In this document: positions 61,669 to 64,000 of the stretch, piece by piece | Numbering within the stretch: the stretch's first letter is position 1 | How the letters are laid out: every line of letters begins with the position of its first letter | NCBI RefSeq assembly: GCF_001429625.1 | Contig: NZ_LMSU01000007.1 | Coordinates: forward strand, 1 to 64,000 | DNA from: Nocardioides sp. Soil805 | GTDB lineage: Bacteria > Actinomycetota > Actinomycetes > Propionibacteriales > Nocardioidaceae | Reading direction: 5' to 3' | DNA length: 64,000 nt | The notes under the pieces: model-generated | Database searches by the model: none | What the model saw: only the letters and a program-made list of their open reading frames with translations | What the model was told of the DNA's origin: nothing | Program-made: the position numbers and the translations under genes

Positions 61669-61743
61669 CACCTCGGTCGGCGCCGGCGCGAGGGGGCGAT
61701 AGTGTGCCCAGCGGCATCGCAGGCAGCAGACTTGGAGTGTTCC

Positions 61744-63531
61744 GTGGCCGACAAGCAGGGATTGCAGAAGGTCCTCATCGCCAACCGTGGCGAGATCGCA
61801 GTGCGCGTCATCCGCGCCTGCAAGGACGCGGGCATCGGGAGCGTGGCGGTCTACGCCGACCCCGATCGTGACGCGCTCTTCGTCAAGCTCGCCGACGAGG
61901 CGCACTCGCTCGAGGGGTCCACCCCCGCCGAGTCGTACCTCGACATCGCCAAGATCATCGCGGTGGCGCAGAAGTCCGGTGCCGACTCCGTGCACCCCGG
62001 CTACGGCTTCCTCGCCGAGAACGCCGACTTCGCCCGCGCCGTCATCGACGCCGGGCTGATCTGGATCGGCCCGCCGCCGGAGGCCATCGAGAGCCTCGGC
62101 GACAAGGTCCGGGCCCGCCACATCGCGGAGAAGGTCGGCGCCCCGCTGGCCCCCGGCACCAAGGACCCCCTCGAGAACGCCCAGGAGGCCGTCGCCTTCG
62201 CCGAGGAGCACGGCCTGCCGATCGCGATCAAGGCCGCCTTCGGTGGCGGCGGTCGCGGGCTCAAGGTCGCCAAGGAGCTCTCCGAGGTCGCCGACGCCTT
62301 CGACTCCGCGGTGCGCGAGGCGGTCACCGCCTTCGGTCGCGGCGAGTGCTTCGTGGAGAAGTTCCTCGACCAGCCCCGCCACGTCGAGACCCAGTGCCTG
62401 GCCGACCAGCACGGCAACGTCGTGGTCGTCTCGACCCGCGACTGCTCGCTGCAGCGCCGCCACCAGAAGCTCGTCGAGGAGGCGCCCGCGCCGTTCCTCA
62501 GCGACGACCAGCTCACCCGCCTCTACGAGTCGTCCAAGGCGATCCTCAAGGAGGCCGGCTACGTCGGCGCCGGCACGTGCGAGTTCCTCGTGGCCAAGGA
62601 CGGCACGATCTCCTTCCTCGAGGTCAACACCCGCCTCCAGGTGGAGCACCCGGTCTCCGAGGAGGTCACCGGGATCGACCTGGTCCGCGAGATGTTCCGC
62701 ATCGCGGCCGGCGAGGAGCTCGGCTACGACGACCCCGAGATCCGCGGCCACTCCATCGAGTTCCGCATCAACGCCGAGGACGGCGGGCGCAACTTCATGC
62801 CCGCGCCCGGCACCCTGTCCACGTGGGCCCCGCCGAGCGGTCCGGGCGTCCGCGTCGACGGCGGCTACCTCGAGGGCGAGACCATCCCCGGCTCCTTCGA
62901 CTCCCTCGTCGCCAAGCTCGTCGTCACCGGCCGCGACCGCACCCAGGCGCTCGAGCGCTCACGGCGTGCGCTGGCCGAGTTCGTCGTCGACGGCATGCCC
63001 ACGGTCATCCCGTTCCACCAGGCGGTCGTCACCGACCCGGCGTACGTCGGTGCGTCGACGCCGTCCGGCGAGGGCGAGTTCACCGTCTACACGACCTGGA
63101 TCGAGACCGACTTCAACAACCAGATCGAGCCGTACGCCGGCGGCCACGCCGAGGCCGAGGAGCAGGGCGAGCGCCAGCGGGTCACCGTCGAGGTCGGCGG
63201 GCGCCGGCTCGAGGTCGTGCTCCCCGCCGGGCTGGGCGGCCTCTCCACGGGCGGGGGCAACGGTGCGGCCAAGAAGCCGAAGCGGGCCGCCAAGAAGGCC
63301 GGTGCCGCCGCCTCCGGCGACGCCGTGACCAGCCCGATGCAGGGCACCATCGTCAAGGTCGCCGTCGAGGAGGGCCAGGAGGTCGCCGAGGGCGACGTCG
63401 TGGTCGTCATGGAGGCGATGAAGATGGAGCAGCCGCTCAAGGCCCACAAGTCCGGCACCGTCACCGGGCTCCAGGCCGAGGTCGGCGCGACGGTCACCAA
63501 CGGTGCAGTCATCTGCGAGCTCAAGGACTGA
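61744..63531 (+). CDS. accA3: Acyl-CoA carboxylase alpha subunit: biotin carboxylase plus BCCP
   Basis: The 595-residue protein has a biotin carboxylase ATP-grasp domain (about residues 5-450). [30 protein letters not shown] and [18 protein letters not shown] are hallmarks. A linker and a C-terminal BCCP domain follow with biotin site [10 protein letters not shown] (K560). It carboxylates biotin for AccD partners. GTG at 61744 follows GGAG. BirA and AccD5/AccE5 in this window complete the enzyme. The Rv3285 position is conserved. Confidence 0.95.
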
Positions 63532-63540
63532 AGCTGCGGG

Positions 63541-63626
63541 AGAGTCCCCGCCCGGGCGGGGACTCTGTCACCGTGTGACCGTTGCAACCGTCACACGGTG
63601 ACAGTCTTCCCGCTCGAGCGGGGACT
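63541..63626. terminator. Three adjacent palindromes after accA3
   Basis: A perfect 26-bp palindrome runs 63541-63566 (half-site AGAGTCCCCGCCC). A second has 14-bp arms TGTCACCGTGTGAC (63566-63579) and GTCACACGGTGACA (63590-63603), with GTTGCAAC palindromic in the loop. A third, CCCGCTCGAGCGGG, spans 63609-63622, with flanking AGTC/GACT. The first is the likely accA3 terminator. The others may be operators or further hairpins. Confidence 0.7.
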
Positions 63627-63642
63627 CATGCAAACAGATAGC

Positions 63643-63668
63643 GAGTGATCACTTTTTATGTGACACTC
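63643..63668. promoter_or_regulatory. Candidate autoregulatory operator of the TetR gene
   Basis: GAGTGATCAC (63643-63652) and GTGACACTC (63660-63668) are imperfect inverted arms around TTTTTAT, ending 5 bp before the TetR start codon in an AT-rich spot. TetR proteins often bind such sites in their own promoters. Confidence 0.5.
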
Positions 63669-63673
63669 GGGTC

Positions 63674-64000
63674 GTGACCGCCCCTCGTCGTACCCAGGCC
63701 GAACGTCGCGACGCGACGATCACGCGGCTCCTCGACGCCACCGTCGAGTGCCTGGCCACGCGCGGGTACGCCGCGACCACCACCTCCGCGGTGGCCGCGG
63801 CGGCCGGCGTGAGCCAGGGGGCGCTGTTCCGGCACTTCCCCACCCGCCAGGACCTGCTGGTCGCCACCGCCGAGGTGGTGGCCGAGCGCAACGTGGCCGC
63901 CTTCCGCGGCCTGGCGGGAGACCCGTCCCCCGACGTCGAGGCCGTCGCCGCCGTGCTGGGCCACCTGCGCTCGGTGGTGCTCTCCCCCGCCAACCAGACG
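63674..64000 (+). CDS. TetR family transcriptional regulator, N-terminal part (cut by window end)
   Basis: From GTG at 63674 a frame of 109 codons reaches the right edge. RRDATITRLLDATVECLATRGYAATTTSAVAAAAGVSQGALFRHFPTRQDLLVATAEVV, read in pieces, is a TetR helix-turn-helix (about residues 9-60). The ligand-binding domain is mostly outside the window. Its regulated genes are not visible, though the acyl-CoA dehydrogenase palindrome at 57937 and its own upstream repeat are possible sites. Confidence 0.88.
   Translation, partial: MTAPRRTQAERRDATITRLLDATVECLATRGYAATTTSAVAAAAGVSQGALFRHFPTRQDLLVATAEVVAERNVAAFRGLAGDPSPDVEAVAAVLGHLRSVVLSPANQT

Follow-up and report, generated by a model that had tools for sequence, protein, structure and literature searches.

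At the end of a 64,000-nucleotide stretch of DNA from Nocardioides sp. Soil805, hereafter the window, several symmetric sequence elements are packed between a carboxylase gene and a gene for a TetR-family regulator, and the locus raises the question of what these elements are. A preliminary description had listed four of them, remarked that the first and the third share sequence, and proposed that together they might mark a regulatory hub. The features discussed in this section are the following.

61702 to 63531, plus strand: upstream gene, a biotin carboxylase/BCCP-type acyl-CoA carboxylase subunit (open reading frame, named by eye, start codon uncertain)
63536 to 63627, plus strand: repeat copy of the hairpin-core-hairpin variant, found at 17 places in the Soil805 genome and described by model R1
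63541 to 63566, no strand: hairpin 1, which is element (a), a perfect 26-bp palindrome
63566 to 63603, no strand: core palindrome, which is element (b), 38 bp long, with a single mismatched pair and, at its centre, the self-palindromic GTTGCAAC
63604 to 63627, no strand: hairpin 2, a degenerate version of hairpin 1 that contains element (c)
63635 to 63667, plus strand: promoter/operator-like block of the TetR gene, found before 24 of 24 TetR orthologues
63674 to 64000, plus strand: TetR-family regulator (PF00440, 2.1e-17), 208 amino acids in full and extending past the end of the window

Symmetry and folding of the locus

All four elements are present as announced, namely the palindromes (a) to (c), whose repeat copy begins 5 nt after the carboxylase stop codon, and element (d), an imperfect inverted pair (63642-63652 versus 63660-63669) that lies mostly within the block at 63635-63667. 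Element (a) is the sole perfect palindrome of at least 22 bp in the window, and its arm of 13 was reached in 0 of 20 Markov-1 simulations of 64 kb, the longest simulated arm being 12. Elements (a) and (b) overlap by one base, and element (c) is a perfect 14-bp palindrome (63609-63622). The sequence common to the first and third elements is GCGGGGACTC, at 63556-63565 and again at 63618-63627, and hairpin 2 is 89% identical over 19 nt to 63547-63565.

Taken together, (a) to (c) form a single near-palindrome of 86 bp (63542-63627, 86% complementary). The RNA of 63530-63675 folds at -93.2 kcal/mol, compared with a mean of -51.4 for shuffled sequences (z -10.3, with 0 of 200 shuffles as low), and the minus-strand fold of the same segment lies 9 standard deviations below its shuffles. 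The preliminary description was right that one terminator would call for less structure than this. Consensus scans of 62000-64000 found neither a T-run terminator nor a sigma-70-like promoter, and Rfam gave no match within the window.

A dispersed palindromic repeat

A DNA search of the Soil805 genome returned 30 matches that merge to 17 places, the window copy included. Elements 1 to 3 are therefore one copy of a dispersed palindromic repeat and not a local regulatory hub; the repeat also stands beside unrelated genes, such as those for S-adenosylmethionine synthetase, a DEAD-box helicase and PAP2, and inside coding sequence. The 17 copies align without gaps at a mean column identity of 84%; GTTGCAAC does not vary among them, nor does much of the GAGTCCCCG..CGGGGAC hairpin. 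The unit is about 90 bp long and consists of a hairpin, a core palindrome centred on GTTGCAAC, and then either a second hairpin (four copies, that of the window among them) or the short end CGACTCGCCGACACAGT and its variants (13 copies).

A covariance model of the repeat, R1, matches the window copy at 63533-63628 with 100 bits (E 7.8e-26), and the reverse strand scores 71.6 bits. With up to 28 candidates scored per genome, R1 has matches in 87 of 147 genomes assigned by homology to Nocardioides, the genus of the nearest named TetR relatives. Changes on both sides occur in 25 of 27 stem pairs, and 0 of 500 shuffles reach the observed values, figures that are inflated because the alignment (A2) was fitted to the model and because it holds both strands of many palindromes, which are thus read double-stranded.

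The TetR gene and the gap in front of it

The fourth element is separate from the repeat. The 33-nt block at 63635-63667 has its best ungapped match, with 23 to 33 of 33 positions, before each of 24 TetR orthologues; the repeat family of the window is found in the gap between the carboxylase and TetR genes (the accC-TetR gap) of only four of these 24 (L082, L088, L090 and L094). Conservation across relatives, which the preliminary description had asked about, therefore holds for element 4 and fails for the repeat, and the original finding divides in two. Judged from its sequence, element 4 belongs to a promoter/operator-like block of the TetR gene, a putative operator independent of the repeat. 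The block has a conserved TAGATAGC..CTCACTTTYTATGTGACACT pattern near the start codon, in the window and in the orthologues.

A local hub bound by TetR, to which the symmetry of the elements and their nearness to the TetR gene had lent some appeal, is very improbable in view of the 16 further copies of the repeat in the genome and of its absence before most TetR orthologues.

Regarding the other gaps, two more orthologues (L093 and L098) carry, by eye, a sister dialect of the repeat marked by GGATATCC, and most of those that remain contain hairpins of other families, again by eye. It seems that a hairpin is favoured between the carboxylase and TetR genes and that its family is interchangeable. 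As side observations, the gaps of L083, L085, L089, L091, L092, L099 and L100 have a long hairpin, GAGCGGTG..CACCGCTC, with CACATT-like inner parts, which sometimes occurs twice in tandem and is possibly a separate repeat family, and those of L087, L097, L101 and L103 have a third hairpin type, GGACGTCATGG..CCATGACGTCC.

A gene bracketed by inverted copies of the repeat

Two of the 17 copies in the Soil805 genome (C4:100049 and C4:101160) flank, in inverted orientation and 1.1 kb apart, a gene for a protein of 316 amino acids, orf317 (contig C4, 100150-101082), which lies beside a KamA-family gene. The same bracketed arrangement is seen again in other species. Homologues of orf317 occur in 123 of 147 Nocardioides genomes (E 1e-20), and across the order a profile at 1e-15 detects homologues in 121 of 147 genomes and 18 of 20 genera. 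Genomes with orf317 have R1 matches more often than those without it at the 1e-20 threshold (81 of 123 versus 6 of 24, p 4e-4).

Among 30 loci of orf317-family genes, R1 finds an inverted pair around the gene at 22 (at three of them further out), a copy on one side at two and none at six, and drift of the repeat dialect explains part of the eight loci at which the model misses the pair. An R1 pair also surrounds the gene at most of 20 more Nocardioides loci, chosen because they are second paralogues or belong to other genomes. In addition, bracketing was measured without any model, by an inverted-repeat score that compares the 420 bp before the gene with the 420 bp after it. Against 600 random placements, drawn from Nocardioides DNA only (maximum 45, 99th percentile 32), the score exceeds all controls at 49 of 52 Nocardioides loci and at 13 of 20 loci from other genera of the order, and it exceeds 32 at 50 of 52 and 17 of 20, respectively; the other seven loci outside Nocardioides are not above the control maximum. 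The first 30 loci are not independent, because 20 of them are the same kamA locus, and the ten non-kamA loci among them score 58 to 135, all above the control maximum.

The gene changes fast at this place. Over 19 kamA loci, orf317 has a mean identity of 55% to the Soil805 protein, compared with 88% for KamA.

Four more distant AbiEi-like genes exist in the Soil805 genome (L352 to L355). L352 (C2:427107-427901) has a clear hairpin-type inverted pair of a different repeat, of GTAACGC type, and L354 (C1:167107-167691) owes its high score to a unit like CCGACCGGGCGCTTCCTGACA repeated in tandem, while L353 and L355 have no flanking inverted pair within 420 bp.

The orf317 protein family

The AbiEi model of PADLOC (PDLC02249) matches 47 of 47 family members, with a best value of 1.1e-19, and PF13338 (AbiEi_4) reaches E 0.1 or better in 34 of the 47, the Soil805 protein itself (E 0.028) being below the cut-off. 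Six residues in the C-terminal third are invariant in the 47 members, namely D236, E247, D249, G250, K253 and Y254, and this part, read by eye, is probably a Vsr-like PD-(D/E)xK nuclease motif, with AbaSI (weak, E 0.17) as the sole supporting structure match.

Two other families were considered as the partner of the repeat and rejected. The single match of DUF559 (PF04480) in the Soil805 genome is a different gene from orf317. The RAYT domain PF01797 has 0 matches in that genome, while control matches were obtained in 5 of 14 genomes, and the nine Pfam families with matches in the 47 members do not include it. No relatives of orf317 were found in IMG/VR contigs, plasmids or phages.

Repeat dialects and their agreement with the paralogues

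A sample of 95 copies from 25 genomes, taken as the best of the R1 list, a sampling that favours the Soil805 dialect, has a common scheme with letters that are specific to each genome. Copies from one genome have a mean identity of 0.86 (361 pairs) and copies from different genomes one of 0.70 (4104 pairs), and the closest copy comes from the same genome in 63 of 82 cases, versus 7.7 expected, for genomes with at least two copies. Orthologous copies at one site in different species have identities of 0.58 and 0.64 at two kamA sites, 0.68 at the accC-TetR site (one pair) and 0.79 at the metK site, where copies within those same genomes reach 0.82-0.87. Copies thus resemble their genome-mates more than they resemble copies of another species, in most cases even where these occupy the same site. 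There are two counter-cases: G105 and G117 share a site at which their orthologous copies are 95.5% identical, above the likeness of copies within those genomes, and the metK-site orthologues, at 0.79, are slightly closer than pairs from other sites (0.76).

Paralogues of orf317 have their own repeat dialects, and scattered copies in the genome of a paralogue agree with its dialect. Among the flanks viewed, a paralogue flanked by the GGATATCC hairpin is present in 9 of 20 genomes, and eight of the nine contain the exact sequence CCCCGGATATCCGGGG, which is absent from the other 11; the ninth (G134) has a variant flank that the CCCCGGATATCCGGGG pattern is unable to match. A reversed-pattern control matched in 0 of 20 genomes. 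The Fisher p of 7e-5 for this test is only a guide, because related genomes are not independent. After removal of the flanking copies 44 scattered CCCCGGATATCCGGGG matches are left; nine of the 11 that were read have the full layout of hairpin, core and end, with an AGATCT-type core in most of those read and a hairpin-core-hairpin arrangement like that of the window in two. The two flanks of a locus are each other's best match among 52 downstream flanks at only 10 of 52 loci (median rank 4), which speaks against a strict link between locus and dialect; relatives share dialects.

Position of the copies relative to genes

Of 83 copies that do not flank orf317, 75 could be classified with a simple gene caller: 35 lie between convergent genes, 37 between tandem genes and three between divergent genes, whereas the control gaps of the same loci (n=61) comprise eight convergent, 39 tandem and 14 divergent. 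Stop codons that face a copy are at a median distance of 22 nt, and 80 of 107 are within 60 nt.

A few copies lie inside genes. In Soil805 one is in frame within an acyl-CoA carboxylase carboxyltransferase gene (L017:2519-2614, equal to C2:138718-138813), and a second species, G117, has one in the same place (L229:1955-2050); at the repeat the Soil805 protein has 33 residues, compared with nine in the solved homologue 3u9r. Termination is thus not the whole story. Only these two were borne out among six copies called inside genes, since L203 and L021 both precede the first recognised domain and L075 is the metK 3' site. A copy in G163 (L079, about 2576-2671) runs in frame through a gene of chorismate-binding type, named by eye, and the right flanks of L020 and L036 resemble that of L079, by eye perhaps as the same site in three species.

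This distribution invites the view that the repeats are terminators or insulators kept by the host for their hairpins, and that the AbiEi-like gene is merely flanked by such terminators. The convergent placement close to stop codons fits that view, as do the other hairpins in the carboxylase-TetR gap of other species. We regard it as unlikely, since termination needs neither a shared sequence of about 90 bp, nor dialects matched to paralogues, nor inverted pairs at the members of a single gene family across many genera; moreover, the T-run is missing, and a terminator would be harmful where the in-frame carboxyltransferase copies lie.

Somewhat less probable still is an operator network, in which the AbiEi-like protein would be a regulator, the repeats its binding sites, and the pair at its own gene autoregulatory as in abiE operons. 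Excerpts of PMC3985639 do describe AbiEi as binding inverted repeats in its own promoter, and dialects that track paralogues agree with such a network. The copies, however, lie behind genes, and few of them (three of 75) are at divergent promoters; one copy also lies 3' of the orf317 gene, and a repressor has no need of the invariant residues of the nuclease motif.

Proposed nature of the repeat and relation to known systems

The reading that we consider likely is that elements 1 to 3 are one copy of a palindromic repeat that is not autonomous and has as its partner the AbiEi-like protein with the Vsr-like motif, orf317, encoded elsewhere in the genome and bracketed by an inverted pair of this repeat. 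Its computed support consists of dispersal, bracketing, dialect matching, homogenisation, retained self-complementarity and the location of most copies right behind genes. Mechanistically, the AbiEi-like domain would bind the repeat, the nuclease part might nick or cut it as a hairpin, a cruciform or a single strand, and repair could then copy it to other sites, a role also supposed for RAYT proteins with REPINs, so that the orf317 protein would be what moves the repeat. New copies would survive mainly behind genes, where a hairpin may do no harm or may serve as a terminator or insulator. A local effect of this last kind, independent of the TetR operator, is likely in the carboxylase-TetR gap. 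By eye, no target-site duplication was found at the copies, and no exactly empty site was found.

By analogy, the repeat and orf317 would work like a REPIN/RAYT system without being a member of that group, the RAYT domain being missing. As described in excerpts of PMC2817692, PMC8049555 and PMC3733652, the two have in common a gene between two inverted palindromic repeats, copies scattered mostly outside genes, and repeats that vary together with the gene; a gene at a conserved place that nevertheless changes fast is a further likeness, the fast change of rayt genes being reported in an excerpt of PMC2817692. They differ in the partner, which is AbiEi-like with a Vsr-like motif here and a Y1/HUH transposase (PF01797) in RAYT, in the unit, here about 90 bp with two symmetric parts, and in the number of copies counted per genome, tens here versus hundreds. 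The GTAG or CGTC end tag of REPINs was not seen, by eye, at the ends of the 17-copy consensus (A1).

The N-terminus of orf317 is like AbiEi of type IV toxin-antitoxin systems, a winged-helix protein that binds inverted repeats according to excerpts of PMC3985639, but orf317 has an extra, nuclease-like C-terminal part, and the three neighbours checked at its kamA locus in Soil805 (KamA, a 5'-3' exonuclease and a DSHCT helicase) do not include an AbiEii toxin. The repeat also resembles MITEs, being short, non-coding and of moderate copy number with self-complementary ends, but neither an insertion sequence with a known transposase that could be its parent nor a target-site duplication was found here; a search by end pattern recognised no larger insertion sequence with the ends of the repeat. 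Rickettsia palindromic elements provide another case of a palindromic repeat in frame within genes, as here, in other hosts and with another sequence, and to our knowledge they have no partner protein.

The layout is already known from REPIN/RAYT, and the partner protein is the new part. Our literature searches on DUF559, AbiEi, REPINs and MITEs, which covered open-licence papers in PubMed Central, brought up no such system. Within PMC12306157, PMC10969869 and PMC3733652, searches by term found Nocardioides nowhere, and AbiEi in neither of the first two. This repeat-and-partner system of soil actinobacteria is apparently undescribed.

Implications

The standard case of repeat populations maintained over long times by a single-copy, vertically inherited enzyme is REPIN/RAYT. 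We put forward, with the chances about evenly balanced, that AbiEi-like proteins carrying a nuclease part of Vsr-like type form a new class of enzymes that mobilise repeats. They would be unrelated to the transposases of the HUH/RAYT, DDE, tyrosine and serine types, and each would spread and homogenise its own self-complementary repeats of about 90 bp, with several such populations per actinobacterial genome. Dialects specific to paralogues within one genome make the specificity of such enzymes directly testable by swaps of repeats and proteins. If the proposal is true, a second, unrelated protein has the REPIN/RAYT layout, and such systems would have arisen more than once; AbiEi-like proteins without a toxin would acquire a role; and the palindromic repeats behind genes across a large group of actinobacteria would be accounted for.
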